From a virus: 64,000 nt of DNA. Positions 26,847-47,721 of this stretch are shown here, piece after piece. Location of the stretch: IMG/VR virus record IMGVR_UViG_3300025096_000004, positions 1 through 64,000 of that record; one strand, 5' to 3'. The translations under genes were made by a program, and so were the position numbers. How positions within the stretch are numbered: position 1 is the first letter of the stretch; every line of letters starts with the position of its first letter. The notes under the pieces are model-generated. The model ran no database searches. It had not been told where the DNA came from and worked only from the letters and a program-made list of their open reading frames with translations.

Positions 26847-27182
26847 ATGAAATATTTGCTATTATTGACATTAATGGGGTGTGGCAAGGCCAATCTTATT
26901 AAAAAAGCTCGAAGTCAATTTGCAAATGATGTAAATTGCATTCTTGTTCTTAGAGAACAAGTTGAAAAAACCGGATGCAAAGCATTGCAAGTTGAATACA
27001 GAAAAAAATCGACACTTATTCGATGCAAAAGGCCGGACGAAGAGCGAGGACCGTTTTGGGATAATTATGTTTTTAAAATTTCATCAGCAAAACAGAGAAT
27101 CGGTCAAGAATTTCTTCCAGAAATTGAAAAACATACCATTTGCATTGATAAAAATATTCGAATTGAGGCATATGCTCCATGA
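26847..27182 (+). CDS. Small putative lipoprotein
   Basis: 111 aa from ATG 26847 behind GGAGG (a TTG lies one codon upstream). MKYLLLLTLMGCGKANL has a lipobox-like LMGC, so lipid attachment at Cys12 is predicted. The mature part has four further Cys, possibly disulfide bonded in the periplasm. No family recognised. ATGA overlap with the next gene. Confidence 0.65.
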   Translation: MKYLLLLTLMGCGKANLIKKARSQFANDVNCILVLREQVEKTGCKALQVEYRKKSTLIRCKRPDEERGPFWDNYVFKISSAKQRIGQEFLPEIEKHTICIDKNIRIEAYAP

Positions 27183-27697
27183 AATTGACAACACAACAAT
27201 TGAAACGAATCATAAAGGAAGAATTGGATGTCGTGCTTGACGAAGCCCTACCAGCAAAAGAAGAGTGGGTCGCTATTATGAATGATTGCATCAAATCCGG
27301 CAAAGATCACTATGATTGCATCGACTTGGCGACACAAGTATTCGGCAGAAGTTGGGATGATGAAACCATTAAAAAACATTTAGATTATGAATACGGAAAC
27401 AAACATCCAGAAAAATTGCGCCCGAAAAAAAGTGAAACAGATGAAATAAATGCTTGGATTGCTCAATCAGCGGAGGACGCTTACCAAAAACGAAACGCTG
27501 CCGCGATAGAGGCGGAAAAATGGGAAAAGCTTTACACTTCTTTCGATTGGAGCCAAGTAGGCCACATGTCAAACATATGGGTTGCAGATCGCTATGAGAA
27601 GGTTTTTGGAAAAGCACCAGATAGCAACCAACACGCCAAAAGAATCAAAAGAAAAATTATAAAGTGGATGAACGTACATGAGGCACAGAAATCATGA
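27179..27697 (+). CDS. Tagged protein of unknown function (class A tag)
   Basis: 172 aa. It begins MKLTTQQLKRIIKEELD, the amphipathic tag found on several unrelated proteins in 27-47 kb, ending in an IKE sequence that fits a T4-type prohead-protease site. The body is helical, with NDCIKSGKDHYDCIDLA and a C-terminal HAKRIKRKIIKWM. No enzyme motif. Likely virion-associated by tag logic only. Confidence 0.65.
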   Translation: MKLTTQQLKRIIKEELDVVLDEALPAKEEWVAIMNDCIKSGKDHYDCIDLATQVFGRSWDDETIKKHLDYEYGNKHPEKLRPKKSETDEINAWIAQSAEDAYQKRNAAAIEAEKWEKLYTSFDWSQVGHMSNIWVADRYEKVFGKAPDSNQHAKRIKRKIIKWMNVHEAQKS

Positions 27698-28035
27698 AGT
27701 TTCCATTCGTATTAGAAAACAGCGTAATTCCCAAGCTTCTGTCAATCTTCATATCCATTGAGGCAATCACCCTCTGGCCGTTCATCATATCAAGAAAGAA
27801 GCTCAATTCCACAATGTTCAACCATGAAATGATACATATCAAGCAACAACAGGAACTGCTTGTCGTTGGATTCTATTTGCTATATGTTTTCTACTGGCTA
27901 AGGGGATTTTGGCTTTATCGGGACAGTGAAATAGCCTATCTTGCCATTCCGTTTGAACAAGAGGCGTACAGTCACGAATTCAATCAAGATTATTTGGAAA
28001 ACCGCAAGATCTTTTCTTGGTGGAAGTATAGATAA
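27694..28035 (+). CDS. Membrane protein with HExxH-like motif
   Basis: 113 aa. Hydrophobic segments around residues 13-32 and 54-72 flank FNHEMIHIKQQQEL (HExIH). Further on, PFEQEAYSHEFNQDY supplies acidic residues that could be a third ligand, and it ends KIFSWWKYR. The layout recalls small membrane zinc-dependent proteins of unknown function. No tag. Overlaps the upstream gene by ATGA. Confidence 0.65.
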   Translation: MKFPFVLENSVIPKLLSIFISIEAITLWPFIISRKKLNSTMFNHEMIHIKQQQELLVVGFYLLYVFYWLRGFWLYRDSEIAYLAIPFEQEAYSHEFNQDYLENRKIFSWWKYR

Positions 28036-28069
28036 TTAATAAGGCGCGAATCGCCGGGAGAACAATTAA

Positions 28070-28360
28070 ATGTCTGAAGCAGAAAAAGATTTATATATGA
28101 GAATTGGCAGATTAGAAGACGGCATTGCCGACCTCAAAGTTGAAAGTGCCAAAACCTATAAGGACCTAATTGGCCACCACGAGATGGACAAAGTAAATTC
28201 GGCCTATATGAAGAAAGCTCTTGAGCAGCTTAAGGAAGCAACGAAGGATCCTCTTGCCGGGAAGGGCACATTTGCTCGATGGCTTGCGGCGGTACTAACC
28301 CCGCAAACAATAGCCATTGTAGCTGCCATCGTAGCTGCCGTGGTTGGCGCAAAACTATGA
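28070..28360 (+). CDS. Coiled-coil protein with C-terminal membrane anchor
   Basis: 96 aa behind GGGAGAAC. N-terminal heptad-like helix (MRIGRLEDGIADLKVESAK) and a C-terminal hydrophobic anchor (PQTIAIVAAIVAAVVGAKL). This is the general shape of tail-anchored proteins or some holin/spanin accessory proteins, but no lysis gene lies next to it, so the role is open. ATGA overlap with the next gene. Confidence 0.6.
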   Translation: MSEAEKDLYMRIGRLEDGIADLKVESAKTYKDLIGHHEMDKVNSAYMKKALEQLKEATKDPLAGKGTFARWLAAVLTPQTIAIVAAIVAAVVGAKL

Positions 28361-29142
28361 AATTGACGTTAGAGCAATTAGAACAAATGGTGCTAGACGA
28401 AATGTACAAGAAGTACAATCGCAAAGCTCCATTGGGAAAATATGTATTTCCAAAATATCTAACTCACGATTTACAAGATGAATTCCCCGATGCAGAGAGA
28501 GAAAGAGATACCCCGTTAGAAAAAATAATATCAAAAGCATTGAGAGTGCATGTCGCCCGAAACAGGGCATTGCCGAACAATGTCATAAAAAAATTGAAAA
28601 ACCTTATGTACGCCGGGCATTATCCAGAAATATTTAAATTTCGTAACGAAGGTCTGGTATATAGGGGAATGAATCTTTCAAAAGAATTTATACAGCATCA
28701 TTTCGGCTCATTACCCAAAAAACCAGTGTGGTATAAGCAACCTATTGACTGGTGGAATACGCGAGCAGAAAAAGTGTTAAGCAGAAAAATGCCGTATTCA
28801 TTTTCGACAAAAACTCGTTACAAAAAGAAAAAATGGCACAGCGGAAAACAGTGGGGAAGAGGGGCGGATTCTAAAGCATCATCATGGACAGACGACCTGC
28901 AATCCGCGAAGGGCTTTGCTGGTGATAATAAAGACGGCTTTGCCGTTATTCTCGTTGCCGATGCAAGCAAAAATCGCGATGTTTTTATTGATCTTGATCC
29001 GTTGTATAAATTATTCGAACCGTTTGAAGGCTTTGACCATGAAAATGAACTCATCGCCACGGATGATGTTAGGGTTCATTCAATAATATGGAACTACCTC
29101 TGGGCTGGGGAAGAAGCCCCTGATCAAAACTGGCTGCCTTAA
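28357..29142 (+). CDS. Probable mono-ADP-ribosyltransferase with N-terminal tag
   Basis: 261 aa. Tag MKLTLEQLEQMVLDEM at the N-terminus. The R-S-E elements of arginine-type ARTs follow in order: LVYRGM (Arg103), ASSWTDDLQSAKGFA (SxxT with A-x2-F, about 174-188) and HENELIA (Glu229-x-Glu231). ExE is typical of arginine-modifying enzymes. T4 Alt, a packaged and injected ART that modifies host RNA polymerase, is the functional precedent, although no sequence relation beyond the fold signature is claimed. Coupled by ATGA to the coiled-coil gene. Confidence 0.7.
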   Translation: MKLTLEQLEQMVLDEMYKKYNRKAPLGKYVFPKYLTHDLQDEFPDAERERDTPLEKIISKALRVHVARNRALPNNVIKKLKNLMYAGHYPEIFKFRNEGLVYRGMNLSKEFIQHHFGSLPKKPVWYKQPIDWWNTRAEKVLSRKMPYSFSTKTRYKKKKWHSGKQWGRGADSKASSWTDDLQSAKGFAGDNKDGFAVILVADASKNRDVFIDLDPLYKLFEPFEGFDHENELIATDDVRVHSIIWNYLWAGEEAPDQNWLP

Positions 29143-29170
29143 AGTCGATTAACAAAACTGGAACTAAAAG

Positions 29171-29851
29171 ATGAAATTATCAAAAGAGCAACTTAGAAGG
29201 ATTATCAAAGAAGAGTATCGCAAACTGCTCAATGAAGATTGGATGGAAGATGTTCATAAAATCGGCGAGCTTTGGAATGCCGGCAAGGGTGATGAGAAAA
29301 ACGTAAGAATGGTTTTGCAACTTCTTCCATCCATTGGGGAAGCTCTGGCCCAATTGGACCCCGCTTGGAAACCCCTAATCGATGCATACCCTGACAACAT
29401 TGTTGTTGACTATACAACAAATTTGTCCAAACGATGGATTCGCGTCTTTTACGAATCAAAAGAAACTGCCGATGTTGTATTGATATTTTTTCGAAATTAT
29501 ATTACGGGTTCCAAATGGCGGAGTTCCGGCATGCCAAGCAAATGGGAAGGTGGAAATTGGATTCAACACAATTTGCCGCGAGAAAAGAATAAGCTGGGAC
29601 CAAGCGAAATACCAAATGCACCAACAATAGAAATCTTGGCCATGATGCTTGATGTGGGTGATGTAGGCCGGGGCGTCGGCATAAAAGAATTGCAGAACAG
29701 GGGCTATGTTGGAGACATCCCGCCACGAACAATGGCATTTCACGAAGACCCGCATTATTACCAGATGCAGTCTGATGGGTCCGTCAAGAAGATCAACGGA
29801 CACTTTGAATTGGACAATGCCACGCTTATGCGATTACAACAGGAATTGTAA
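29171..29851 (+). CDS. Tagged protein of unknown function (class A tag)
   Basis: 226 aa starting MKLSKEQLRRIIKEEYRKLL, the clearest example of the class A tag. The body (WIRVFYESKETADVVLIFFRN; WKPLIDAYPDNIVVDY) seems alpha/beta; a late segment reads IKELQNRGYVG. No catalytic motif recognised. It ends directly at the start of the thioesterase gene. Confidence 0.65.
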   Translation: MKLSKEQLRRIIKEEYRKLLNEDWMEDVHKIGELWNAGKGDEKNVRMVLQLLPSIGEALAQLDPAWKPLIDAYPDNIVVDYTTNLSKRWIRVFYESKETADVVLIFFRNYITGSKWRSSGMPSKWEGGNWIQHNLPREKNKLGPSEIPNAPTIEILAMMLDVGDVGRGVGIKELQNRGYVGDIPPRTMAFHEDPHYYQMQSDGSVKKINGHFELDNATLMRLQQEL

Positions 29852-30244: not shown

Positions 30245-30268
30245 TTAATGTAAGCATGAGAAAAAAGC

Positions 30269-30355: not shown

Positions 30356-30358
30356 ACG

Positions 30359-32569
30359 ATGAAAATAAGAATAAGAAAAAAGAAAGTACCATTTCTCAAT
30401 GAAGCATTAACTGGACTGCACTTGCCGGATATTATTAATACGAAGATCATGGAAGAGGTTACAATCAACGCCAAAGCTCAAGAAGTCTACGGCAAGATCA
30501 TTCGAGATACATTATTTCGATGGCGTGGACGATGGTTTCAAAATAAAATGTTCCATATCATGATGGCGAGAAGAACCATGGCTGGAGACAGCGAGTACAT
30601 TCTTGATGGTGTAAACGAATCAATTTTTAATCAATTTATCAAAAACAATATAGAGAAGGCAGGGCTAACTGCGAAAGAAGATGAACATGGAATGAATTGG
30701 GAAAAATGGATTTCAAGATTAAATCCCGACAATCCCGATATTCAAATTGGCGCTGATGCTGATTGGGCAATTATGGTTGGTGATACGGAAGCTTCTTTTC
30801 CGGAAGGGTGGGAAGATGAAATGAGTCCCACGCGAGCTAGGTTATATAGAAGGCGCGTAGAGCGGGACGTTAAGCGTTTTGAAGGATACGTGCCAAATGG
30901 GCGAAAGGCTCTCCATGCTGCTCAAAAAGAATATGTTCAATTTAGAAACGAACTCAAAGACGTTGCGGCTGGGCTATTTGAAAAGTTAAAGGTTCAAGGT
31001 GGCAACCGAAGATTTGTCCAAGTAAATCGAGATTTATGGGTAGATATTCGGAGAGCCCTTAAGAGCACCCGAAAGAAATTTAAGAAATGGGGGTTCCAAC
31101 AAATTTATGAAGATGAGATTGTTCCGGCTGTCGATTCATTATATTTGATGATTTGGAAATATGCGGCTGAGAAAGAAGACATGGTGAAGATTGCGGCTTA
31201 TTTGAATAGATCTCCGAGAAATCATGCTGGGGTTGAGAAAGCCATGAATAAGGCCATTGATAATGGCGATGATATTCTTACTCATGTTGTTAAATTTTTG
31301 GCGACAGGTGAAATGGAGAAATCTTTAAAAACCTCTTGCGAAGATGTTGCCGCTGAGAAGGGAAGCGATAACATGTTTTGGACCGATGGGACGCCATGTG
31401 TTATCAAGAAATATGATGATGGGCACTTTTGGTTTAATCGAGCATCAAGAAATTGTGAGGCGTTTGGGACTGAAGGGAGAAATTGTGGTAGTGGAGCATA
31501 TCTGCTGATCGATCTTCAAAAGATGGGAGATACGAGGACATGGCACATTGGGCTGGATTATGATCCGAATAGTAATATACTGCACCAAGTGCTTAGCAAA
31601 GGAAATGTGTTTCCTGTGGAGAAGTATTGGCCTTATATTAAGGATTTTGTGGAAAAATTTGGCGTCAAAGACATCGAGGTCGATGCCTTTACTCATTCAC
31701 AAGATTCAAGTCCGTCGCAAATTGCTAAATTCATGACCTTTGTGATGGGAGAGGACCATGAGCGAGGCAAAGAAGATGAAGCATTAAAAGAAATCATATC
31801 AAAGATAGACAATGGTGAATATAATTTCGGTATTGTCGATTCAATGGCTGAAAGATTTAGAAAAGTTGGAAAGGTTGAAGTATGGGGAGCTTTAAGGGAT
31901 AGCGAGGGCATCCATTTTGATGTTGCTTTCGATTCCAAATGGCAGTCCGACTTTCCGATAAAACCCAAAGAGTGGAGAGAGAAGTATGCACATGACCGAG
32001 GTTTTTTAGAAAGAACCATGTCTGAGAAAGCAACAAATTTAATTGAAGAATGGTGGAACCAGCACCATCACCGGTTCTTCTTTAATATGTATTCTCACTT
32101 GGGACCGCTAGCTATCGGGGTGAAACCAACATTGGCGTTCAGCATGAAGATCGATATGCACGAAAAGTTCTGGCGGGAAGAGTTCCCCGAACGGGCCAGT
32201 GATACCGGGTTTATAAGAGGCACAGAACTAGAGATGGCACACAAGGCTTTTACCAATAACGGCGGCATGATGAATGGAATCTATTATCCAATTAAAAATG
32301 AGGATAATATGAATAGATACATTCAAAAGATGAGGTCCTCTATATTTCCAAGACAGGAAAGAAGAAAATTTTTAAGCCACTTTGATGAGGAGATGGAAAA
32401 AGAGTGGGCGGATGCTTTAAAAGAAGTTGAAAGACAGGCTGCTGTACTTAGAGGCGATACTGACTTGGCCGAGGTTTGGAAGAAAAATGCAAATATTAAA
32501 CCCAAGAAAAAGATCAATGTCCATGAAGCAGCAGCCAAAAACAATTGGTATAGGAAGAGACAGAAATGA
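30359..32569 (+). CDS. Large tagged protein with NCG motif domain (paralogue of 33837)
   Basis: 736 aa. It begins MKIRIRKKKVPFLNEALTG: a class B tag of alternating basic and hydrophobic residues followed by LNE-A, a T4-type processing site. The central domain (about 335-400) has DDGHFWFNRASRNCEAFG and EGRNCGSGAYLLIDL, aligning with GNGFFWYN, SCSVEAARMGHCG and ILFSLRS in the 33837 protein, so the two share a Cys-x2-E-x(n)-(N/H)CG domain. A long helical N-terminal region precedes it. A Cys-based activity is possible but not shown. Candidate injected virion protein. Confidence 0.7.
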   Translation: MKIRIRKKKVPFLNEALTGLHLPDIINTKIMEEVTINAKAQEVYGKIIRDTLFRWRGRWFQNKMFHIMMARRTMAGDSEYILDGVNESIFNQFIKNNIEKAGLTAKEDEHGMNWEKWISRLNPDNPDIQIGADADWAIMVGDTEASFPEGWEDEMSPTRARLYRRRVERDVKRFEGYVPNGRKALHAAQKEYVQFRNELKDVAAGLFEKLKVQGGNRRFVQVNRDLWVDIRRALKSTRKKFKKWGFQQIYEDEIVPAVDSLYLMIWKYAAEKEDMVKIAAYLNRSPRNHAGVEKAMNKAIDNGDDILTHVVKFLATGEMEKSLKTSCEDVAAEKGSDNMFWTDGTPCVIKKYDDGHFWFNRASRNCEAFGTEGRNCGSGAYLLIDLQKMGDTRTWHIGLDYDPNSNILHQVLSKGNVFPVEKYWPYIKDFVEKFGVKDIEVDAFTHSQDSSPSQIAKFMTFVMGEDHERGKEDEALKEIISKIDNGEYNFGIVDSMAERFRKVGKVEVWGALRDSEGIHFDVAFDSKWQSDFPIKPKEWREKYAHDRGFLERTMSEKATNLIEEWWNQHHHRFFFNMYSHLGPLAIGVKPTLAFSMKIDMHEKFWREEFPERASDTGFIRGTELEMAHKAFTNNGGMMNGIYYPIKNEDNMNRYIQKMRSSIFPRQERRKFLSHFDEEMEKEWADALKEVERQAAVLRGDTDLAEVWKKNANIKPKKKINVHEAAAKNNWYRKRQK

Positions 32570-33255
32570 AACTTATAATGGAGACATGGCGAAGGTATTT
32601 AACAGAATCCCAAGTGACAAAGCTTAGGATTTTTGACTTTGATGAGACCATTGCCTTTACAAAGTCTTCCGTTCGAGTAATAACCCCAAGGGGAAAGAAA
32701 ATTGAATTTCCTTCTCAATTAGAATATGATAAGTGGATCAGCAAGATGGGACAAGAACTTGACATTCAAGACTTCGATCCAGTAGGTGCGATGGTCAGGA
32801 TGGGCTTTAAATTCGATTATAGTGATTTTGATAAAGTTATCGATCCGGAAGAAAATAATAGGGTTGTCAAGATTTTAGGACGTGTTGTTGGAGCGAACCG
32901 ACTTGATCCGCAGAGAGAAGTTTATATTATGACTGCTCGAGGTCCAGAAGCTAAGAAACCAATAATGGATTATCTTATGACTTTAAAGAGAGAAGATGGG
33001 TCTCCAAGGTTTGAAAAAAGTGACTTCACCGGCATACTCACTTTGACAGGGCAATCCAAACAACGAGCGATTGAAAAGCTTATTCTCAAACACTCAACAG
33101 ACGGGCAAACCTCAATTAGACAAATTTCATTTTTTGATGATTCTCAAAAGAACCTCGATGATGTCATGCAATTGAGAAACAAATATCCAGATATTGACAT
33201 TGCAATAGAAAAGGTCGAGCATGGAGATATTACAAGTTTGGAGGAAGAGATATGA
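32566..33255 (+). CDS. HAD-superfamily phosphatase with N-terminal tag
   Basis: 229 aa. Tag MKLIMETWRRYLTES (LTE site), then HAD motif I LRIFDFDETIAFTKS, motif II YIMTARG and motif IV ISFFDDSQKN with the motif III Lys near QSKQRAIEKLI. The enzyme part starts within 20 residues of the N-terminus, so the tag is a clean addition. Substrate unknown; candidates are nucleotides or polynucleotide 3' phosphates. ATGA overlaps with both neighbours. Confidence 0.8.
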   Translation: MKLIMETWRRYLTESQVTKLRIFDFDETIAFTKSSVRVITPRGKKIEFPSQLEYDKWISKMGQELDIQDFDPVGAMVRMGFKFDYSDFDKVIDPEENNRVVKILGRVVGANRLDPQREVYIMTARGPEAKKPIMDYLMTLKREDGSPRFEKSDFTGILTLTGQSKQRAIEKLILKHSTDGQTSIRQISFFDDSQKNLDDVMQLRNKYPDIDIAIEKVEHGDITSLEEEI

Positions 33256-33542
33256 AACTCATAATGGAAAATTGGAGAAAATACATTAAAGAAGGTGAAC
33301 TTATCCAAGGTCCATGGGTTTCGGCCAAAGATCAAGCAGTTGAAGAATTTATAAAATTATTCCCTCCGGCGATGGCACCAGATGAAGTGGAGGCAGAGGA
33401 GTTCATATTTGCGCTTCAAAGTAAAGAGGTCGAGTCTGCTCTAAAGGCCATTGGTTATCGACCGGAGACCTTTGGTATGGACCATCTTGGAAATATCTAC
33501 ATTTGGGTTGACAGGTGGTTTAACAAAAAGAGTATGCTATAA
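33252..33542 (+). CDS. Small tagged protein (class A tag)
   Basis: 96 aa, MKLIMENWRKYIKEGEL (IKE-G site), followed by a compact acidic domain ending GNIYIWVDRWFNKKS. The tag is nearly identical to that of the preceding HAD protein, although the bodies are unrelated. Function unknown. Confidence 0.65.
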   Translation: MKLIMENWRKYIKEGELIQGPWVSAKDQAVEEFIKLFPPAMAPDEVEAEEFIFALQSKEVESALKAIGYRPETFGMDHLGNIYIWVDRWFNKKSML

Positions 33543-33836: not shown

Positions 33837-36110
33837 ATGATAAAAATAAAGATTAGGAAGAATCCTGTGTTGCAAGAAGCGATGAAACTTGAAGGCATGG
33901 GTTTGCCAGCAATTTTAATCACTTCGATCAAAGAAGATCTCACTAAAAGAGAAGATCAAGTCCGCCTCGCATTAATGCTCAAAGATGAACCAATAAGTTT
34001 GCGGGCAGCAATGAAGGCCTCCAAGCTATTTGATTGGAATGGGCACAACCCATGGGTGGGTAATTTTTATAAACAAATGGAAAAGAAATATCTCAATCAT
34101 GATATAGGCATGAAAGAGTTTAAAGGCTTTTACGATAAATATTCCAATTATTTTGTCAATCACAAAGCTGTTGCAATGAGTGGCGAATATTATTGGAAAA
34201 GCAAATTGCAAAACCCCGATCGGCCAAGCCCTTTTTGGGTCAGAAATGGTGTTGACTCGACAAGACCTTTAAAACTTAAAGATTTGAAAGGAATGAGAAA
34301 ATCTGTTGCCAAGTTTATTAAAAAAAATGATGAATTGTCAACTGAACATTATACCAAAAAATTCAATGATGAAATGGATGGAACTATTCTTGAATTCTAT
34401 AATGATAAAATTAGAGGAAGTGGGTCTGGATCAAAACTAATCGCCTTTTTGAAAGAACATCCAGACAACCAACAATCGCTTGCAGGTATGGGTTTAAAGG
34501 AAGCGGTGGAGTTTGCTGAAGGTTATTTTAATGAAAAAGAAGATCCTGACAACATTATTAAAGATTACGGTAATGGATTTTTCTGGTACAACATAGGAGA
34601 AGATAGTTGTAGTGTCGAAGCGGCTCGCATGGGTCATTGCGGCTCAGCGGATAGAGGGATTTTATTTTCCCTTCGGTCTAAGGGTCGGAAGCAAAAAATT
34701 TCCGATTCCCATATTACTATCTCGTTTGATGGAGGAGAGGTATTTCAAATCAAAGGAAAACAAAATTGTACACCTGATGAGAAGTATGGCAAGTATATTA
34801 TTGATTTTTTAAAATTTATGGAAGTAGAGGTTATTCATGAGTCAGGACAACATTCAAGTTGTGATTTTGGGCCATTTCTTGAATGGCTCCAAGAGAAGTA
34901 TCCCGAAGCAGAATATCCGGGAAATATGGAAGAAGAACTCATGCAAACCATCAATGCAATAAACAATGGTAATTACAACACAGAATATGTTGAGTTTTAT
35001 TCAGATTGGGTAGATGACCCTCATATAGGGAGGCCTCAAATTTATATTGATGCAGAAGCTTTCTTTCGTGTGGAACTGCCTTTTTTAAATGATTTGGATT
35101 GGGAATTTGTGGCAGATATTTATAACGATGAAGAGGAAAAGTTAAAAGAACTCATTGTTGAGGCGTGTGACTTTGAAGATTATGATGTATATTCTGATGC
35201 TATTGATATTCACCTCCGAGAGGGCGAGTTTTCCGATGAGGGGCTCATGTTGGATGTTAGACTTCGTCTTTCTCCAGATAATAACAATTACGCTGAAAGT
35301 CAGGAAGAGGCGGAAGGAAATATAAGAAACATCTATTATGGTTATGAAGGGGACAACATTGAAGACCATCAAAAGAAAATACAAACGGTTTTCATGCGAG
35401 AGTATGACGATGTTATTAACCCCGCCGGGCGGGAAGAATTCCAAGGTGTTTTGGAAAGAATCGAAGAATTAAAGCAACAATATAAATTTTTTGATGTATA
35501 CGTTGACGATGAGTCCGAAGAGATCTCAATGGAAGCAAAGATCCCGCTGCCAATTAGATTTAAATTTATTCAGAATGCGGGACGATACAGCAGAGATCAA
35601 ATTGGAAGAGCTATCAATACTTATTGGCAAGAGTTGGAAACCATATTCCCGACCAAAACAATTGCAAAAGATATAGAAAAAGCAATGGATGATAGACATG
35701 ACAAGATAAAGGCTGCTGCCGAAAAACAGGTTCAAATACCCTTTCCGGGATTTGAAGTTGAAAAACCTCACCAAGGGAAACTTAAAAAGCCATTTTCTTT
35801 TGAAATGGGAATTAAGAGACCAAGCACGGCTGCGCTGAGTGGTGCAATCAAAGGGGCAGAGTGGCTTGTTCCAAAGTTGGCAATGGGCATGATGATAAGT
35901 TGGCTAGATAATAAAGACACGATTTTATATGTTATGGAATATATCGACTTCCTTGAGGATGAGATAGAAAATATAATAAATGGTCTTCCTTTGGACAGAA
36001 TGCAGAGAGAAGTTAACGCGGCTCATAAAGAAGCAGTGAGTTCTCTTCCCAACTACACACAACTCTCCGAGAACAGAAAAAGAAGAAGAAAAATTAAAAT
36101 AATTAAATAA
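33837..36110 (+). CDS. Large tagged protein with GHCG motif domain (paralogue of 30359)
   Basis: 757 aa behind TTTGGAG. Starts MIKIKIRKNPVLQEAMKL: class B tag with LQE-A site. The central domain (about 240-335) reads GNGFFWYNIGEDSCSVEAARMGHCG, continuing ILFSLRS, SHITISFDGGEVFQIKGKQN and KYIIDFLKFMEV. A domain with W-x(n)-C-x2-E-x(n)-MGHCG and QIKGKxN is recurrent in phage proteins without known function. Beyond it, a long acidic region and a basic C-terminus (KRRRKIKIIK). Candidate packaged effector. Confidence 0.7.
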   Translation: MIKIKIRKNPVLQEAMKLEGMGLPAILITSIKEDLTKREDQVRLALMLKDEPISLRAAMKASKLFDWNGHNPWVGNFYKQMEKKYLNHDIGMKEFKGFYDKYSNYFVNHKAVAMSGEYYWKSKLQNPDRPSPFWVRNGVDSTRPLKLKDLKGMRKSVAKFIKKNDELSTEHYTKKFNDEMDGTILEFYNDKIRGSGSGSKLIAFLKEHPDNQQSLAGMGLKEAVEFAEGYFNEKEDPDNIIKDYGNGFFWYNIGEDSCSVEAARMGHCGSADRGILFSLRSKGRKQKISDSHITISFDGGEVFQIKGKQNCTPDEKYGKYIIDFLKFMEVEVIHESGQHSSCDFGPFLEWLQEKYPEAEYPGNMEEELMQTINAINNGNYNTEYVEFYSDWVDDPHIGRPQIYIDAEAFFRVELPFLNDLDWEFVADIYNDEEEKLKELIVEACDFEDYDVYSDAIDIHLREGEFSDEGLMLDVRLRLSPDNNNYAESQEEAEGNIRNIYYGYEGDNIEDHQKKIQTVFMREYDDVINPAGREEFQGVLERIEELKQQYKFFDVYVDDESEEISMEAKIPLPIRFKFIQNAGRYSRDQIGRAINTYWQELETIFPTKTIAKDIEKAMDDRHDKIKAAAEKQVQIPFPGFEVEKPHQGKLKKPFSFEMGIKRPSTAALSGAIKGAEWLVPKLAMGMMISWLDNKDTILYVMEYIDFLEDEIENIINGLPLDRMQREVNAAHKEAVSSLPNYTQLSENRKRRRKIKIIK

Positions 36111-37172: not shown

Positions 37173-38642
37173 ATGAAGGTTAAAATCAAAAGAAAGATGG
37201 ACGAGCTTTTTGCTCTTCCGGGTAAGCCCGGCAAACGAGTTGAAGAAGATGAAGAGTTCCCAGAATTAGTCCACAAGAAGGCCAACGAATGGGCTAGCGA
37301 GCCCGGAATGACACGCAAACAAGCTTATGGCAAGGCCATAGGTATGTATAAAAGCGGTGATCTTAAAGAAGTCTTTCCTCATGGTGGGTTGCCATATGGC
37401 GCAGCGAGAAAACAAAATGGTGAAAAAGAACATGCAGGTCATGTCGAGAGATCGTGTCATCAAGGGCTTCGAAATGTAATGAATGAAGAAGACAATCCCC
37501 ACATTCAGGCAATCCAAGATATAGGTTTTAGCAATATAGAATATATTAGTAAAGGGCTATATGGGTCGGTTTACCGAGGAACTTGGGATAATCACGATGG
37601 CGTTGAACATGCAATCAAAGTCCTCCCTGCAAACGGAGATGGGAGACACGAAGCCAAAGTTTATAGAACTATTTCCGATATGAGGTCAAAAGTAAAGTCA
37701 ATTGCCAAACATTTTCCGAGAGTAGACATGGTTCGGATGGATCAAAAGAGAAATTTAATCTTAATCGTCATGGAGCTTCTTGAAAATGATCCAAATGCTA
37801 AAGGAGTTATTCAAGATATATTTGGAGGAACAGAAGTTGCAGTCTGGAGGCCAGATCTGGCTCTTCAAGATCTAGATATACACAAGAATATCGGACACAG
37901 AGCGGACATGATGATAACAGATCCGAAGACCAAAGAGTTCGTTGTAAACAAATTGATACAAACTGTGCCGGCTGGTAAAGGATATGTCAAAGATGCCTTA
38001 ATGAGGGCTAATTTTCGAGGAATGAAATTTCCAAAATTAAAATGGCAAAATGCGATAGGAAAAATGAAACAGAACGCTCAAGTTTTTGATTTAGTTGATG
38101 TTATTTGGGATGATATGAAGACCCGAGATTTGGGACCATCGAAGGAAAGTTCCGGGAAAACATCAATTGCATTTTTAGCTTATTTTCTCAATGCTGCTGT
38201 TGAAGCATGGGAAAAAGATTTTGATGTTGAAAAAATGGGTTATGATGCACTATTTGATGAACTTTATCTTTCTTTAGAAGATTTTATACATATGTATCGT
38301 TCTTGGACACCAATTGGTATATCGCCAGACGGCTCCACCGACATGATGAAGGGTGCGCCTCCAGAGATAAAAGGAGCGGGATACCCCGGAACAGAAAGTC
38401 TTTTAAAGGCCATTAAGGCTGTTCGGGCAACAACGGGTCTTGGAGCATACGATATGCATGACGACAATGTCTTGGTCCGGCCGGGGACAAAAGATTTGGT
38501 TATAGTTGATGTCGGACTGTTCAGAGAGAAGTCCGCAAGAATAAAAAGCCCAGATAAACAGGTGACAGCACTTGGCGAGGTCAACAAAAAAGACTTTTTG
38601 AGAGTTATTATACAAGAAATACAAAAATTTAACTTGACATAA
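37173..38642 (+). CDS. Protein-kinase-like protein with N-terminal basic tag
   Basis: 489 aa from ATG 37173 (GAGG upstream). Class B tag MKVKIKRKMDELFALPG. After about 120 residues: Gly-rich loop KGLYGSVYRG (127-136), HAIKVL (Lys149), candidate Glu in HEAKVYR, hinge-like VMELLEN, a catalytic-loop-like MHDDNVLV (H429-x-D-N) and VDVGLF in place of DFG (D446). The order is that of protein kinase folds, with HDDN reduced compared with HRDxxxxN. Active kinase or pseudokinase is open. If packaged through its tag, it would parallel phage kinases that modify host proteins early. Confidence 0.7.
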   Translation: MKVKIKRKMDELFALPGKPGKRVEEDEEFPELVHKKANEWASEPGMTRKQAYGKAIGMYKSGDLKEVFPHGGLPYGAARKQNGEKEHAGHVERSCHQGLRNVMNEEDNPHIQAIQDIGFSNIEYISKGLYGSVYRGTWDNHDGVEHAIKVLPANGDGRHEAKVYRTISDMRSKVKSIAKHFPRVDMVRMDQKRNLILIVMELLENDPNAKGVIQDIFGGTEVAVWRPDLALQDLDIHKNIGHRADMMITDPKTKEFVVNKLIQTVPAGKGYVKDALMRANFRGMKFPKLKWQNAIGKMKQNAQVFDLVDVIWDDMKTRDLGPSKESSGKTSIAFLAYFLNAAVEAWEKDFDVEKMGYDALFDELYLSLEDFIHMYRSWTPIGISPDGSTDMMKGAPPEIKGAGYPGTESLLKAIKAVRATTGLGAYDMHDDNVLVRPGTKDLVIVDVGLFREKSARIKSPDKQVTALGEVNKKDFLRVIIQEIQKFNLT

Positions 38643-38681: not shown

Positions 38682-39386
38682 ATGAAGCAGTTAATGGAAA
38701 ATTGGAGACAATATCTCGAAGAAGATCAACTTGAAGAAAAACTATCCCTCAAAAAAGGTAAAATGGGTTGGTGGAAGTACTCAGAACTTGTTGCGGAGGC
38801 CTATATGACTGCTCCAGCATATGATTCTGCTGTTGAACCCCTTTATGAGAAGCTTGGATTGTGGCTTGAAGGTACTTTTGGTCGAATTTCAAGTCAACTT
38901 GAGATCAAATTTGTCCCAGAACACCCCTACACCTCCGCCAAAGAGATGAGACAACGCGTAAATAAAGAAAAAATCATGTATGTTTCGACTTCAGACGCAG
39001 AACATCCGGTGTGGACAGGCGAAAAAGGCCTAATTTGGAACACCATGTTTCGTGCTTGGCACGATTGGGAAGGCCACATAGCCAAAGGAAGAGGTTTCAG
39101 GCTCCAAGGGGAAATAGCAGCTTACAATGCACACGCAAAAACAGTACCAAGAGCGTGTATTCCCATACTCTTTACCGAAGTGGTGGGCCAAATCTGTTGT
39201 TTTTATCAATCAGGTAAGCAAAATTGCGAACAAAAAGCTATAATTATGCCAGAATTCGATTATATTAACGTTGGAAATCTAACTTCGGAGGGCGAATCAA
39301 GGTTTGGAATGAGATTAAACTCACAAACGAAGCTTCTGGAGCCAATCAATGATTCGATTGGCGCGGAAATCGATAAAAATGAGTAA
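38682..39386 (+). CDS. Tagged protein with WHDxxGH motif
   Basis: 234 aa. Tag MKQLMENWRQYLEEDQL (LEE-D site). The body has FRAWHDWEGHIAKGRGF, LQGEIAAYNAHA and LFTEVVGQICCFYQSG: an ordered set of His, Glu and Gln residues (HDxxGH ... GE ... E-x3-Q) that resembles a metal-binding helical bundle seen in phage proteins of unknown function. Iron or diiron binding is a guess. Overlaps the next gene by 8 bases. Confidence 0.65.
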   Translation: MKQLMENWRQYLEEDQLEEKLSLKKGKMGWWKYSELVAEAYMTAPAYDSAVEPLYEKLGLWLEGTFGRISSQLEIKFVPEHPYTSAKEMRQRVNKEKIMYVSTSDAEHPVWTGEKGLIWNTMFRAWHDWEGHIAKGRGFRLQGEIAAYNAHAKTVPRACIPILFTEVVGQICCFYQSGKQNCEQKAIIMPEFDYINVGNLTSEGESRFGMRLNSQTKLLEPINDSIGAEIDKNE

Positions 39387-41048: not shown

Positions 41049-41357
41049 ATGAAAATTGATAAAAAAAGACTTGTTCAGATAATTGAAGAAGAAATGGATA
41101 TGATGAACAAACACCATCATCGAGGCGAACATATGACAGATCCCGATAAAGAGGGTAAAATGGCTATGTCACAGCTTAAAAATATAGCTGAGTATGCCAT
41201 GGAACTACATCAAATGCTTGAGCCATATGGTGATAACCTTCAGCTTGAGTCTTGGGTACAGTCAAAAATCACTTTAGCAAATGATTATATGTCAAAAGTT
41301 AAACACTTTCTTGAAAACGAATTAAATGTTGGACCTTCTATCGGAGGAGAAAAATAA
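41049..41357 (+). CDS. Conserved phage protein with class A tag
   Basis: 102 aa, tag MKIDKKRLVQIIEEEMDMM (IEE-E). The core MSQLKNIAEYAMELHQML, then LESWVQSKITLANDYMSKVKHFL, matches a short helical protein recurring in T4-like and other myoviruses (the WVQSKITxAxDY string), function unknown. Supports the myovirus-like assignment. Confidence 0.7.
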   Translation: MKIDKKRLVQIIEEEMDMMNKHHHRGEHMTDPDKEGKMAMSQLKNIAEYAMELHQMLEPYGDNLQLESWVQSKITLANDYMSKVKHFLENELNVGPSIGGEK

Positions 41358-41697: not shown

Positions 41698-41698
41698 A

Positions 41699-42215: not shown

Positions 42216-42219
42216 TAGT

Positions 42220-43005
42220 ATGAAATATATTATTAATGCTAAAGATTATTCCAATGAAGTAAAGGGTTTAACAAATTTTGCTCGAAAAAGATTCGGCTTT
42301 TCTCAACAACCCAAGATCTTATTTGATGATGATGTCCCGAATAGTCACAAAACCTTGGGAAAAACAGGGCATTATGATCCGGGCAGCATGCAGATACATA
42401 TATATGCCACTGGGCGACACATTAAAGATATTTTAAGATCTTTGGCACACGAACTGGTTCACCATATGCAAAATGAAAATGGTGAACTTTCCCATGATGG
42501 GTATATGGGACAAGGATATGCACAAAAAAACCCTCACATGAGGGAAATGGAAAAACAAGCATATGAAATGGGTAACCTCTGTTTTAGAGATTGGGAAGAT
42601 AGCTTAAAACAAAAACACCCAACTATTTATAATGAAAGGAGAAATCATCAAATGTCACTAAAAGATTGGAAAAATAAAGAGTTAAACGAAAACCTCAATG
42701 AAAAATGGGGATTTAAAATGAAACTCAATGAAATGGGGATGCACCCCGGAGCCCAACAGGGAAGTATAGAACGAATGAATAGTATCTATGGTGCTGAACC
42801 ACCTCTGGCTCCGGAAGAATACATAGATCCAGAAGAATGTGAAGCCGTCGATCCAGTTTCTGGGGAATGTCTTGACCCTCCAGAAGAATCACCCTGTGCA
42901 ATGGCACAGCAGGAAAATCCATCCCCAATGGGATCGGAAATGCCAAGAGACGTACCATTTCAAGAGTCTCTCAATAGGAAAATCCGAGTTAAAATTAAAA
43001 AATGA
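42220..43005 (+). CDS. Zinc metallopeptidase-like protein with internal start and C-terminal tag
   Basis: 261 aa. LAHELVHHMQNENGEL (HExxH) followed by MREMEKQAYEMG, where a Glu could be the third ligand; this layout occurs in several phage genomes. At 42652 an in-frame ATG follows AAAGGAG: MSLKDWKNKELNENL, a string typical of protein starts and ending GFKMKLNE, another [LI]xE site. The C-terminus RKIRVKIKK repeats the class B tag. The gene may yield a full-length protein and a tagged C-terminal product. Confidence 0.75.
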   Translation: MKYIINAKDYSNEVKGLTNFARKRFGFSQQPKILFDDDVPNSHKTLGKTGHYDPGSMQIHIYATGRHIKDILRSLAHELVHHMQNENGELSHDGYMGQGYAQKNPHMREMEKQAYEMGNLCFRDWEDSLKQKHPTIYNERRNHQMSLKDWKNKELNENLNEKWGFKMKLNEMGMHPGAQQGSIERMNSIYGAEPPLAPEEYIDPEECEAVDPVSGECLDPPEESPCAMAQQENPSPMGSEMPRDVPFQESLNRKIRVKIKK

Positions 43006-44051
43006 AATTTGAAAAATTAAATCAATTTATTATTGAAGCAGTTCAAAATTACAATGAGGACGAAGTCATTGAAATTAAATCCTTTAAGGATCTTATGGAA
43101 GTCTCTGGTGTAAGTGGGCTTGCTGGATATGCAGGAATTCCATTTGGTAAAAAAAATGAAATCGAAGAGTTTAACAAAAAAGAAGAATTAAGACAACGTC
43201 TTAAAGGAAAAAAAATATCTGAAGGAGCAAATAACATGATTAAGAGAGAAAATATCCTCATTGAAAGAAGAATTCGACAGTATATCAGAACCAAAATTAA
43301 AAACCTAATGCATGAACAAAAAAAGGCGGAGATGCAAGAAGAAATGCAATTACGCCATGTTATTCGTCATTTGATCAAAGAAGGTGATATCTCTGATATT
43401 CATCCTCACCGATCTACTGGTATTAATATCTTGGAAGACCTTCTTAAAAAAATGATTCCAACTCTTCGGACTGATTTCAAACGATTAACAACAGATAAAT
43501 CTCAAAGGGATTCTTTCCGGGCTCATTTGGTTAAAGCTATCAAAGACTCACTTATGCCAATGATGGTAAATGATAAATATCGACCTGAAGACGAAGAACC
43601 TGCTGCTCCGGTGGCTGAACCGGGCGCACTATTAAGTGAACCTCCTGCTGATGTAGGTGCAGGTGAAGACGAAGAGGTTTTGGCCAATTTAGAAGAAATG
43701 GTGATGGCTGAACTTGGGGATCTGACGGAAATAGATATTGAAGTGCAGGACGGCGATGAAGAAAAAAAGGTTCCTGTCGAAGATGACGATACTCCTTCAG
43801 ATGAAGAAGCCTTTGGGACGGGCCTCGAAGGCTTGGATGAAACGGGGAGGAATATGGCTTTTACCTGTTTTAAAAAGGTTAGTCAATACATCCTTGATGC
43901 CTACGATTCGTTGGCCAATCCCAAAGACAAAGAAATCTTCATCGATTATTTGGTCACCAATGTTAAATTGTATTTTGATAAGTTCGAAGACGAGCTTGCA
44001 AAATCTGTTGATGAACCAACAACAAGTCAATATGATGATGCCATTGCTTGA
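43002..44051 (+). CDS. Probable virion-internal or core protein with capsid-targeting-like start
   Basis: 349 aa. MKFEKLNQFIIEAVQNY strongly resembles the T4 capsid-targeting start (MKTYQEFIAEA) with an IIE-A processing site. A second in-frame ATG at 43236 has GAAGGAG 9 bases upstream. The body is helical (LRHVIRHLIKEGDIS, RAHLVKAIKDSLMPM) with an acidic Pro/Glu-rich middle (about 190-280) typical of scaffold/core proteins. Likely prohead core or internal protein, by analogy. Confidence 0.65.
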   Translation: MKFEKLNQFIIEAVQNYNEDEVIEIKSFKDLMEVSGVSGLAGYAGIPFGKKNEIEEFNKKEELRQRLKGKKISEGANNMIKRENILIERRIRQYIRTKIKNLMHEQKKAEMQEEMQLRHVIRHLIKEGDISDIHPHRSTGINILEDLLKKMIPTLRTDFKRLTTDKSQRDSFRAHLVKAIKDSLMPMMVNDKYRPEDEEPAAPVAEPGALLSEPPADVGAGEDEEVLANLEEMVMAELGDLTEIDIEVQDGDEEKKVPVEDDDTPSDEEAFGTGLEGLDETGRNMAFTCFKKVSQYILDAYDSLANPKDKEIFIDYLVTNVKLYFDKFEDELAKSVDEPTTSQYDDAIA

Positions 44052-44470: not shown

Positions 44471-44495
44471 CAACTTCTCAGTTATAGGTTATATT
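44467..44495 (+). promoter_or_regulatory. sigma70-type promoter without operator
   Basis: TTGACA (44467-44472), N17, TATATT (44490-44495) in GGTTATATTATATAC context; drives 44525 and the phosphomannomutase unit. Confidence 0.8.
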
Positions 44496-44524
44496 ATATA
44501 TACTGGATTACTATGGGAGGTAAG

Positions 44525-44791
44525 ATGACAGTAACTGTAGATGATATTATAAAGAAATATAAAAACAAGAAAGGTGATATAGAGTCTGAAACGATACTAA
44601 TTGATAATAATTACGAGCGGAAAGCCAATGGAACAGTATCTGTTTGGGGATGCACAGCAGATATTGCGAATATAGCGGCAAGATGTAGAGACCAAATTGT
44701 CTCCATCCGCGATGATGCTGATGGTTGTTCTCTAGAAATCAATAGAAAGGCATTCAGAGGCGTTTTATACGCCTTTCGGAATGTAAAATGA
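44525..44791 (+). CDS. Hypothetical protein
   Basis: 88 aa from ATG 44525 behind GGGAGGT; ATG 44513 overlaps that site. MTVTVDDIIKKYKNKKGDIE, GTVSVWGCTADIANIAARCRDQI. No family recognised. ATGA overlap with the phosphomannomutase gene. Confidence 0.6.
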   Translation: MTVTVDDIIKKYKNKKGDIESETILIDNNYERKANGTVSVWGCTADIANIAARCRDQIVSIRDDADGCSLEINRKAFRGVLYAFRNVK

Positions 44792-45666
44792 GTTATGGCA
44801 AAAGAATAACTTGGCTTAATGATATAAAAAAATCTCAGCAGACTTCTGAGTGGGAGTTACCCCACCCAAAAAATATTATTTTGTTTGATATGGATGGGAC
44901 GTTGACTGCTCCAAGACAATCTTTTGATATGAATCTTTTGCAGCCTCTCCGAAAACTTTCTGAGATTGCTGATATTGGGATAGTATCAGGATCAGACTTC
45001 GATTATATTAAAGAACAATTGCATTATCTGCTTTTTAAATCAGAAATAAGATTTAAACTGCATTTATTGCCTTGCAATGGTACAAAATACTATGCACCAC
45101 CTACTTTTTCAACAGATCAATATATTTTGTCTCACAAAGTTAATATGAAAGAAGAAATAGGATCGCTGTCTTTTCATCAAATGATGAAAATTCTAACATC
45201 ATTGCAGAGTCATATAGCAGAGTTGGGAATCCCACTATCAGGAAATTTTATTCAATATAGGGGTTCCATGATTAATTGGTGTCCTATAGGTAGGAACGCT
45301 TCTCTTGAAGAAAGAGAACAATTTGTCAAGCGCGATCTTGAGTCAAATATTCGGAAAGACTATTTGCGGAGATTAAAGAGAAAACTCTCTCTTTCTAATA
45401 TGGATAAAAAAATAACTTGTACTTTGGGAGGAGAAACAAGTTTTGATATTTATCCAAATGGGTGGGATAAAACCTATGCCCTGCAACACTTTGAACATCA
45501 AGATGTTTGGTTTGTCGGTGATCGATGTGAAGATGGCGGAAACGATCAAGCTTTATATGAAGTTTTGATCAACAAGGGTCGATCCTATAAAACAAAAGGG
45601 CCAAAAAATACTAGAGAAATTATTGATGTAATAGGTCAACATTTATTAAACTTGGAAGATGAATGA
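44788..45666 (+). CDS. pmm: Eukaryotic-type phosphomannomutase (HAD family)
   Basis: 292 aa. The full signature of the PMM1/PMM2 branch is present: IILFDMDGTLTAPRQ (nucleophile Asp), IADIGIVSGSDFDYIKEQL, NWCPIGRNASLEEREQF, GGETSFDIYPNGWDKTYALQ and VWFVGDRCEDGGNDQALYE. It converts mannose-6-P to mannose-1-P, the step before GDP-mannose. The protein is about 45 aa longer than human PMM2, with about 27 extra residues at the N-terminus. It complements the GDP-mannose dehydratase operon at 59.6 kb. Confidence 0.88.
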   Translation: MSYGKRITWLNDIKKSQQTSEWELPHPKNIILFDMDGTLTAPRQSFDMNLLQPLRKLSEIADIGIVSGSDFDYIKEQLHYLLFKSEIRFKLHLLPCNGTKYYAPPTFSTDQYILSHKVNMKEEIGSLSFHQMMKILTSLQSHIAELGIPLSGNFIQYRGSMINWCPIGRNASLEEREQFVKRDLESNIRKDYLRRLKRKLSLSNMDKKITCTLGGETSFDIYPNGWDKTYALQHFEHQDVWFVGDRCEDGGNDQALYEVLINKGRSYKTKGPKNTREIIDVIGQHLLNLEDE

Positions 45667-46019: not shown

Positions 46020-46044
46020 GAATCTCAAACGTGGGAGAAAAATA

Positions 46045-46371
46045 ATGAAAATATTTTATTTAAAAAGGGTTGAAGATGAATCTGGCGTGTCCGGAACAGG
46101 CCGCATTGCTCAAGGGTTTATTTTTGATAATGGAAAAGTTGCCCTGACTTGGCTTTCAGAACACCCTTCTGTTACGGTTTACGATAGTATAGGCGAGGTC
46201 CGCGCTATTCACGGCCACGGTGGCAAAACAGAAGTTATTATGGAACCTGACTATAAAAGGGCATATAACGAAGTGAAGAGCTTTGTTGACAACTTTAAAC
46301 TGGAGGATGTTATGAAAGATAAACTCCCTGTTGAAGGTTCCGCCGCCAAACTATTAAAGGAGAAAGAATGA
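46045..46371 (+). CDS. Conserved phage protein (SGVSGTG/IHGHxG type)
   Basis: 108 aa from ATG 46045 (GGGAG upstream). YLKRVEDESGVSGTGRIAQGF, VALTWLSEHPSVTVYDS and IHGHGGKTEV are the recurrent strings of a short protein found in many phages and some bacteria; function unknown. Overlaps the next gene by ATGA. Confidence 0.75.
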   Translation: MKIFYLKRVEDESGVSGTGRIAQGFIFDNGKVALTWLSEHPSVTVYDSIGEVRAIHGHGGKTEVIMEPDYKRAYNEVKSFVDNFKLEDVMKDKLPVEGSAAKLLKEKE

Positions 46372-46799
46372 ATAAAAAAATGATAGCAATAAGTGGGGGA
46401 TTTGACCCCATTCATGTTGGTCACATCCGCATGATAGAAGAGGCATCAAAGCACGGGTCTGTTCTTGTTATCCTTAATTCTGATGATTGGCTTCAAAGAA
46501 AGAAGGGTTATGTGTTTATGGCGTGGAAAGAACGAGCATACATAATGGGAAATATCAAGGGTGTTTCTGTAGTAACAAATGTAGATGATTCCGATGATAC
46601 AGTGTGTCAAGCTCTCCGTCGACACAAGCCAGATGCATTTGCAAATGGCGGAGATCGCAAATCCAATAACACACCAGAAATGCAACTATGTAGCGACCTT
46701 GATATAGAATTGTTATGGAATATTGGCGGTGAAAAGGTTCAATCTTCTTCCGAGTTGGTTACCAACAGTCAAAACCAAAAAGGAGCAAAGCATGTCTGA
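46368..46799 (+). CDS. Cytidylyltransferase-like nucleotidyltransferase
   Basis: 143 aa. ISGGFDPIHVGHIRMIEEA carries the (H/T)xGH signature, followed by VLVILNSDDWL and ANGGDRKSNN. The length and pattern fit the glycerol-3-phosphate cytidylyl/heptose-1-phosphate adenylyltransferase group. It could activate a sugar phosphate or polyol phosphate. Another option is a pantetheine-phosphate or NMN adenylyltransferase-like role, less likely from the GGDR motif. Confidence 0.8.
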   Translation: MNKKMIAISGGFDPIHVGHIRMIEEASKHGSVLVILNSDDWLQRKKGYVFMAWKERAYIMGNIKGVSVVTNVDDSDDTVCQALRRHKPDAFANGGDRKSNNTPEMQLCSDLDIELLWNIGGEKVQSSSELVTNSQNQKGAKHV

Positions 46800-47046
46800 A
46801 AAATATAATCCCGGCGGAGCGGATAGGTTGTTGGATCGAGTGGAAAAAGACAAAACTGGTAAAATAAAAAAACTAGTTCTAATGTTGATGGATTCTGTGA
46901 AACGATTATCTATGGAGGGTATTCCGATTGATGAAATTGCCGCGACGACTACAATGGCATGGTACATCGGTCAAAACCCAGAAATGGAAAATATTGTACA
47001 AGCGTTCGCAAATTTGGACCAATCTGATGAAAATAATTATAATTGA
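46792..47046 (+). CDS. Hypothetical helical protein
   Basis: 84 aa from ATG 46792 behind AAAGGAG. MSEKYNPGGADRLLDRVEKDK, helices KIKKLVLMLMDSVKRLSME and IDEIAATTTMAWYI. No family recognised. Last gene before a terminator. Confidence 0.6.
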   Translation: MSEKYNPGGADRLLDRVEKDKTGKIKKLVLMLMDSVKRLSMEGIPIDEIAATTTMAWYIGQNPEMENIVQAFANLDQSDENNYN

Positions 47047-47051
47047 ACACA

Positions 47052-47078
47052 AAGGAGGGAGAAATCTCTCCTTTTTTG
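47052..47078 (+). terminator. Rho-independent terminator
   Basis: AAGGA (47052-47056) and GAG pair with CTC and TCCTT (47066-47073), GG bulge, AAAT loop, followed by six T. It separates the sugar/nucleotide unit from the putative structural genes. Confidence 0.65.
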
Positions 47079-47109
47079 CTATTTAGAGTATGATATAAGA
47101 GGAATTTAG

Positions 47110-47721
47110 ATGTCCACTGCCATGAGATTGATAATGGAAGGTTGGCGAGAGTTTTCTATTTTGGAATCAATTCTTGCTGAAGATAAAAAAGCAACACAAA
47201 TGAACATTGACCAGCTTGCTGATGTTCAAGCAAAATATGCAAAAAATCCAGAAATCCAAAAGAAAATATATATCGCCTTAACTTCAGACCCAGAGGTGCA
47301 AAAGCTCGCAGCTTTTCTCGTAAAATCTATCGAATCCGGAGTTGAAAGTTCTGAAGAGATTTCTGGCGATGCTGCTACAGATCTCGAATCAGCCGGACTC
47401 CAAGAGGGATTGGGAGATTTTGTTCAAGCAATCACTGATGCGATGGTCCTCGCCGGCGCTGGAGAAATGGAAGCTGCTTTGCGCTCTGTTGGTTTAGGTA
47501 TGATTGCGGATGCAAATCCAAAAATTATTGGAGCAGCAGTGCTGGCCATCACCGCCGGGGCGTCGTTAACCGGCGCCATAGACCCTCTTGATGCAGTTAA
47601 ATTGGCAGGTATCGGTGGCAAAATTGCAGTTGGCGGCATTGACAGCGCAACACCAGAAGATTTTGCTGATATTGCCACTTCAGCCTCCGGCCTCGAGGGT
47701 GGCAAGAAAGCAGAACAATAA
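47110..47721 (+). CDS. Tagged Ala/Gly-rich protein
   Basis: 203 aa. MSTAMRLIMEGWREFSILESI contains the class A tag wording (MRLIMEGW, ILE-S site). The C-terminal half is Ala/Gly/Ile-rich (IIGAAVLAITAGASLTGAID) and could contact membranes or form a flexible virion component. No enzyme motif. Confidence 0.65.
   Translation: MSTAMRLIMEGWREFSILESILAEDKKATQMNIDQLADVQAKYAKNPEIQKKIYIALTSDPEVQKLAAFLVKSIESGVESSEEISGDAATDLESAGLQEGLGDFVQAITDAMVLAGAGEMEAALRSVGLGMIADANPKIIGAAVLAITAGASLTGAIDPLDAVKLAGIGGKIAVGGIDSATPEDFADIATSASGLEGGKKAEQ

Follow-up and report, generated by a model that had tools for sequence, protein, structure and literature searches.

Tagged genes in the record

The window considered here is a 64,000-nucleotide stretch of DNA from a marine T4-like phage, positions 1 to 64,000 of IMG/VR virus record IMGVR_UViG_3300025096_000004 (191,495 bp; 191 kb). 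Several genes within it encode proteins that share short N-terminal peptides, here called tags, while their remaining parts (bodies) are unrelated. An earlier note on the window had listed twelve such N-termini in two classes, A and B. All 12 of these lie in frames open at the coordinates listed, on the + strand, but the start quoted for 47110 begins at 47122 (the open reading frame (ORF) at 47110 begins MSTAMRLIMEGW...), and the start at 37173, MKVKIKRKMDELFAL, contains no [LI]xE, the motif in which nearly all of the starts were said to end. The single class A of that note does consist of related starts, but it comprises two tags: A, MKLTKEQLRRIIKEE(L..VLxE), and C, (M..)KLI[MF]ENWRxFLxE, typically MKLIMENWRxFLxE. 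The two align without gaps (MKL..E..R+.IKE), and 18 proteins of the record with unrelated bodies begin with one or the other.

The likeness of these starts was measured by ungapped 14-mer scores among the 186 + strand genes of at least 80 amino acids (aa) in the whole record. At a score of 38 or more there were 54 pairs of N-termini, whereas internal segments gave 0.9 and shuffled N-termini 0.4, which confirms that unrelated proteins start alike. Most pairs scoring at least 34 (64 of 73) fall in one N-terminal cluster of 17 genes, with A and C mixed; gene 28357, which was missed because a longer frame (alternative start at 28279) concealed its tag, brings the number of tagged genes to 18. Searched with the tag patterns, the record gives 18 matching ORFs and its reversed sequence one, and no match was found in 600 kb of IMG/VR loci picked via an arbitrary 14-mer.

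A search of the full genome for further tags, proposed in the earlier note, yielded ten additional tagged genes beyond the window (at record positions 112421, 113233, 113492, 120812, 121593, 122564, 123559, 170843, 190163 and 191152). Tags occur in the window cluster at 27–47 kb, at 112–114 kb and immediately round the prohead protease gene. The 270-aa ORF at 112421-113233 (L006:8421-9233) has a class A tag at residue 1 and another at residue 108 (position 112742); two cargo genes may have fused here, or the second tag may mark an internal start. The protein whose C-terminal part occupies positions 2 to 1087 of the window has its N-terminus at 191152, with the tag MSDAKLIFENWRGFLNE, indicating that the record is circular or terminally redundant; a complete 384-aa version is found at L026:8491 (99.3% identity over 300 aa).

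Exchange of tags between bodies

Both tags are widespread in IMG/VR. The class A pattern was found in at least 120 stretches, on at least 131 non-redundant bodies of at least 60 aa, while a strict DNA pattern for class C retrieved 32 genes with 21 unrelated bodies. In 238 IMG/VR loci, the tagged proteins that are 110 aa or longer number 353, and their bodies form 186 clusters. In at least four families the same body stands behind tag A in one phage and tag C in another. A P-loop kinase body carries tag A in L199, L201 and L204 (...NRVLREN) and tag C in L113 (...KYLNEQ) and L217 (...RFLKEE); a body with the motif STIHFMDWL follows A in L200 (...NRVLREE) and C in L202 (...RFLIEG); the ADP-ribosyltransferase (ART)-like body of window gene 28357 follows A here and C in L168 (...KFLQEV); and L158 and L100 form a fourth such pair. 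The junction of the swap lies at [LI]xE, and in the kinase and STIHFMDWL families homology returns a few residues past it. The tags are therefore exchangeable modules.

Shared gene starts could instead be recombination hot spots, in which the tag-coding DNA is kept so that effector genes can be swapped through homology, with the peptide contributing little of its own. This explanation would suit the tandem arrangement of tagged genes and the swapping of bodies behind tags, as well as the strong codon bias at some tag positions (ATA for I4 in 26/32). Nevertheless, tag codons vary synonymously, including both the Arg and both the Leu codon blocks, so selection acts on the peptide and conservation is not confined to the DNA. 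Tags A and C also differ in sequence yet replace each other, and the cut site described below is conserved in register. Recombination as the main cause of the shared starts is therefore very improbable.

A cut motif in the register of T4

The T4 protease gp21 cuts after L/I-x-E (PMC9026906). The class A scan left residues 16 onward unconstrained; among the matches listed, 22% nevertheless have [LIVMF]xE at residue 21 and 44% have it one residue later, against a background of ~2.5%. In class C tags not selected for it, [LIVMF]xE follows directly after the aromatic residue in 34 of 40 cases, or in 31 of 37 once three supplied by the scan are removed (background 2.5%). The motif thus lies mostly at residue 21–22 in class A, a longer tag than the earlier note had supposed, and at residue 14 in class C. 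Its recurrence at a fixed site in front of bodies that were not selected for it indicates that a gp21-type cut motif closes the tag.

In the capsid-targeting sequence (CTS) of T4, MKTYQEFIAE, residues 4 and 7 are important for targeting and residues 8 and 10 for processing (PMC9026906). Counted from the cut Glu, these are positions −6, −3, −2 and 0, at which class C has W, F/Y, L/I and E and class A has L, I, I and E. The T4 residues (site YQEFIAE|A) thereby align with W/L8, F/Y/I11, I/L12 and E14 of the tags. The cut site of the T4 capsid protein gp23, FGSFLTE|A, likewise aligns with LLRE|A in the capsid protein of this phage. The protein at 43002, likened to the T4 CTS in the earlier note, has a start that does fit the T4 register.

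The diagnostic feature is the fixed register and not the mere presence of [LI]xE close to the N-terminus. In S-CREM2, a T4-like cyanophage whose virion proteome has been published from mass spectrometry (PMC10665884), 198 genes were translated and 43 virion proteins compared with 155 others. A bare [LIVMF]xE occurs within the first 26 residues of 60 of the 155 non-virion proteins, and the bare motif was rejected as a predictor of virion presence (p 0.15). The general register, on the other hand, is found in 7 of the 43 virion proteins and 4 of the 155 others (p 0.0024), or in 7 and 1 if F is required at −3 (p 1e-4, post hoc). All four non-lysis enzymes detected in S-CREM2 virions have tags of the MKxFxxFLxE type: an S-adenosylmethionine (SAM) hydrolase (MKDFDSFLEE), a kinase (MKRFDAFLTE), a cytidylyltransferase (MKNFSSFLTE) and a Cas9-like protein (...RFASFMAE). 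Two hypothetical virion proteins begin MKDLHSFLTE and MQTFSMFFSE. Homologues of the cytidylyltransferase start similarly in S-SM2 (MKSFFQFLSE|A), P-SSM2 (MKSFSQFLTE|T) and S-CRM01 (MKLFNQFFKE|A).

The prohead protease and its neighbours

A gp21-like protease, for which a search of the full genome had been suggested, is encoded at record positions 121949-122560 (Peptidase_S77, PF03420, E 9.3e-37; PHROG head maturation protease phrog_207, 1.6e-60). It belongs to a T4-type head cluster with a portal protein (phrog_213, 1.3e-71) and a gp23 capsid protein (PF07068, 2.1e-74). Tagged genes adjoin the protease gene on both sides, with 120812 and 121593 upstream and 122564 and 123559 downstream. Both downstream proteins are of class C and have a DGHHRW motif; by eye, 123559 resembles the class C-tagged family L013 and its relatives from the IMG/VR scan. 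No enrichment of T4-like late promoters (TATAAATA) was seen upstream on the coding strand.

The association of tag and protease extends to related phages. In 581 kb round related proteases there are 108 tags, all on the strand of the protease, and an S77 protease is encoded in 21 of 25 tagged contigs of at least 99 kb compared with 1 of 17 random contigs (p 4e-7). Flavobacterium phage immuto (L244), a cultured relative by its capsid protein, has tag families of its own, MKKSQLRxIIKE and MENFDLKKFLVENKLT, upstream of and round its portal and protease (gp21) genes, the latter tag occurring at four places in the immuto record. Short tblastn searches of INPHARED phages, in which short queries are insensitive, returned no match for the class C tag and one weak match for the class A tag (E 5), in a 484-kb uncultured phage.

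These observations bear on the suggestion that the tags have nothing to do with the head and are some other N-terminal signal, one that controls degradation or directs proteins to membranes or host proteins. Class A is short, amphipathic, Lys-rich and helix-like, as such a signal might be. The co-occurrence with an S77 protease, the position of that protease among head genes, the fixed [LIV]xE cut site, the T4 register and the S-CREM2 virion data all speak against it, and it can be given very little credence. A Sec-type signal was rejected because the tags have no hydrophobic core.

Putative cargo proteins

The earlier note had named three enzymes among the tagged proteins. The putative ADP-ribosyltransferase, 28357, is supported by its motifs: it has the R-S-E motif of such enzymes, with R103, S175/S176 and E229-x-E231 conserved in its L168 homologue (36% identity over 241 aa). 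It had no match in searches of PDB and Pfam, a search of related loci gave no further homologues, and an AlphaFold2 model built from two sequences only had a confidence score (predicted local distance difference test, pLDDT) of 31. The other two assignments are weak: the product of 37173 matches PK_Tyr_Ser-Thr at a Pfam E of 0.0017, under the cut-off, and that of 32566 matches HAD at 0.009. The protein at 38682 illustrates the division between tag and body. Its mycobacteriophage homologues match from residue 37 only, i.e. past the tag, and in an AlphaFold2 model the body is confident while residues 1–20 are disordered (pLDDT < 50); a Foldseek comparison of the model with PDB found no matching fold.

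Among 81 tagged representatives searched against Pfam, most have no family, and CTP_transf_like, AAA_33, C5 DNA methylase, M23, YkuD, tRNA-ligase phosphodiesterase and LRV were found in one protein each. The record's own PF01467 nucleotidyltransferase, an enzyme of the same type as the cytidylyltransferase in S-CREM2 virions, carries the class C tag MKLIMENWRSFLKE. A cysteine motif of the CWDGYE type occurs in class C-tagged proteins of L041 (CWDGYEMIG...VPNCVPKE) and L023 and recurs in other phage proteins there.

The nature of the cargo matters for a further explanation, that the tagged proteins are structural or assembly factors of the scaffold or core, which would be destroyed or expelled at maturation and not injected. 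The tagged genes on either side of the protease sit at the place taken in T4 by gp67, gp68 and gp22, which are themselves gp21 substrates (PMC9026906), and numerous class A bodies are small and charged. The bodies are nevertheless very diverse and include enzyme domains (PF01467, AAA_33, C5 methylase, M23, YkuD), and finished S-CREM2 virions retain such enzymes. A purely scaffolding role is consequently judged unlikely, if less so than the two explanations above.

Features of the window

Table 1. Tags and associated features in the window (positions in the 64,000-nucleotide stretch)
Position	Strand	Feature	Gene and remarks
2..1087	+	C-terminal part of class C-tagged protein	own tag at the record's other end
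27179..27244	+	class A tag MKLTTQQLKRIIKEELDVVLDE	27179-27697, 172 aa; second site VLDE|A
28357..28401	+	class A tag MKLTLEQLEQMVLDE	28357-29142
28402..29142	+	ADP-ribosyltransferase-like body	YRGM, ASSWT and ENE motifs; L168 homologue has class C tag
29171..29236	+	class A tag MKLSKEQLRRIIKEEYRKLLNE	29171-29851, 226 aa
30359..30403	+	class B candidate tag MKIRIRKKKVPFLNE	30359-32569, 736 aa; weak, few relatives
32566..32607	+	class C tag MKLIMETWRRYLTE	32566-33255; weakly HAD-like, DFDET motif; L139 homologue also tagged
33252..33293	+	class C tag MKLIMENWRKYIKE	33252-33542, 96 aa
33837..33878	+	class B candidate tag MIKIKIRKNPVLQE	33837-36110, 757 aa; C-terminus LSENRKRRRKIKIIK similar
37173..37196	+	class B-like start MKVKIKRK	37173-38642; weakly kinase-like; no clear [LI]xE
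38682..38723	+	class C tag MKQLMENWRQYLEE	38682-39386; conserved body (IMG/VR phages, mycobacteriophages)
41049..41090	+	class A tag MKIDKKRLVQIIEE	41049-41357; body also elsewhere, including inside larger proteins
43002..43037	+	T4 CTS-like start MKFEKLNQFIIE|A	43002-44051; agrees with T4 register
47122..47166	+	class C tag MRLIMEGWREFSILE	47110-47721; cut site displaced one residue

Class B (MKIxIxKK) is limited to the three genes of Table 1 and one relative, L196. The tag ends FLNE|A and VLQE|A fit the cut motif, but position −6 is basic in these few cases, and class B is a weakly supported candidate for a capsid-targeting sequence. The C-termini of the proteins at 33837-36110 (LSENRKRRRKIKIIK), 42220-43005 (FQESLNRKIRVKIKK) and L006:18564-19562 (LEENRKRRRRKK) look like a C-terminal class B beside a possible cut site. 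The C-terminus of T4 Alt is likewise cut by gp21 (PMC9026906).

The protein encoded at 42220-43005 has a HELVHH zinc-protease motif and is conserved in L025, L039 and an immuto protein annotated as NadR. An untagged HAD protein of the phosphomannomutase type (PF03332, E 1.6e-39) is encoded at 44788-45666. Beside the tagged gene 47110, positions 47739-52271 encode a charged protein of 1510 aa, starting VNIAKQLIESAVNELMEEYNLDEG, which is possibly a large internal head protein. Between 9200 and 22700 many small proteins begin MKVGDLVK or MKIGDLI, forming a repeated small-domain family, and three proteins resembling CCHC zinc knuckles are found at 7028, 11038 and 15588.

A proposed model for delivery of tagged proteins

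The tags are probably cleavable capsid-targeting peptides, a much expanded variant of the internal-protein system of T4; the probability of this reading is put at roughly 0.85. The proposal of the earlier note, a T4-type cargo signal cut at [LI]xE, is supported by the tag swaps, the fixed and unforced [LIV]xE, the protease co-occurrence, the T4 register and the S-CREM2 virions. Packaging, core binding, cleavage, injection and effector activities are what we infer for this phage from that evidence. The phage would make many unrelated effectors, each with an N-terminal peptide of the form W/L-x-x-F/I-I/L-x-E, which would bind the effector to the scaffold core while the prohead assembles. Cleavage after [LIV]-x-E by the gp21-type protease of the phage itself would then free the mature protein inside the head, to be packaged along with the DNA and delivered into the cell infected next. 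Once injected it might act ahead of phage gene expression, through ADP-ribosylation, NAD metabolism, kinases, DNA methylation or cell-wall hydrolysis.

Several points weigh against this reading. Only five of the random contigs reach 96 kb, and with these alone the protease co-occurrence has p 0.011; in four of the 25 large tagged contigs, possibly fragments, no S77 protease was seen. The S-CREM2 tags are T4-style, neither A nor C, the pattern was defined after the N-termini of S-CREM2 had been seen, and its authors caution that some detected proteins may be co-purified (PMC10665884). Neither virion nor cleavage data turned up for this phage or any other with class A or C tags. Finally, a cytoplasmic effector role is not obvious for the tagged M23 and YkuD (cell-wall enzyme) domains.

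A broader proposal, held with more reserve though still favoured, is that marine T4-like phages use a general modular delivery code, in which interchangeable tags on dozens of proteins per genome make the virion a preloaded injector of effectors. A sizeable share of the ‘dark matter’ genes could then be read as injected effectors from sequence alone. If the capsid-targeting reading is true, the virion cargo of uncultured marine phages that form a widespread group can be predicted from a short sequence pattern. The pattern would assign a place (the head interior) and a time (the first minutes of infection) to hundreds of proteins annotated without function, among them ADP-ribosyltransferases, kinases, DNA methylases and NAD enzymes, and hundreds of unexplained genes in related viruses would become predicted injected effectors.

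Comparison with known systems

To our knowledge, the injected phage proteins known so far are few, mostly from T-even phages, P1 and giant phages. A search of an open-access collection found no text mentioning the tag strings. The inner-head proteins of phiKZ, 201phi2-1 and SPN3US resemble the present set in being numerous, internal to the virion and made with cleaved N-terminal propeptides, cut there at S/A-x-E, with a diverged gp21 homologue. The propeptides of SPN3US, unlike the tags, are mostly ~80–160 residues long and are not shared short sequences (PMC5694885). A further comparison is with the T4-like cyanophages S-CREM2, S-SCSM1 and S-CRM01, whose virions contain a kinase, an NMNAT-like cytidylyltransferase and a SAM hydrolase with MKxFxxFLxE starts in the same register. 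Their tags, in contrast to those of this phage, are T4-style, and the available portions of the papers discuss the virion enzymes without describing a tag. Capsid targeting, if correct, would suggest a reason why NMNAT-like proteins and kinases recur in cyanophage virion proteomes.

The nearest parallel is T4 itself, in which a short N-terminal peptide, cut by gp21, is found on unrelated proteins (IPI, IPII, IPIII and the propeptides of Alt, gp24 and gp23). In both phages the peptide has hydrophobic or aromatic residues at −6, −3 and −2 and E at 0, ending in an [LI]xE site; each encodes a gp21-type protease, together with a gp23 capsid protein whose own site matches; and the cargo of both includes an ADP-ribosyltransferase or a protein resembling one, Alt in T4. 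The tags differ from the T4 CTS in sequence (MKLTKEQLRRIIKEE or KLIMENWRxFLxE) and in length (14–22 aa compared with 10), in the second [LIV]xE of class A, in the tandem arrays and interchangeable tag classes, and in number, with at least 18 tagged genes in one record compared with a handful in T4. The best reading is that the signal is of the same kind as the capsid-targeting signal of T4, and that what is new is the tag sequences and the much larger set of cargo.

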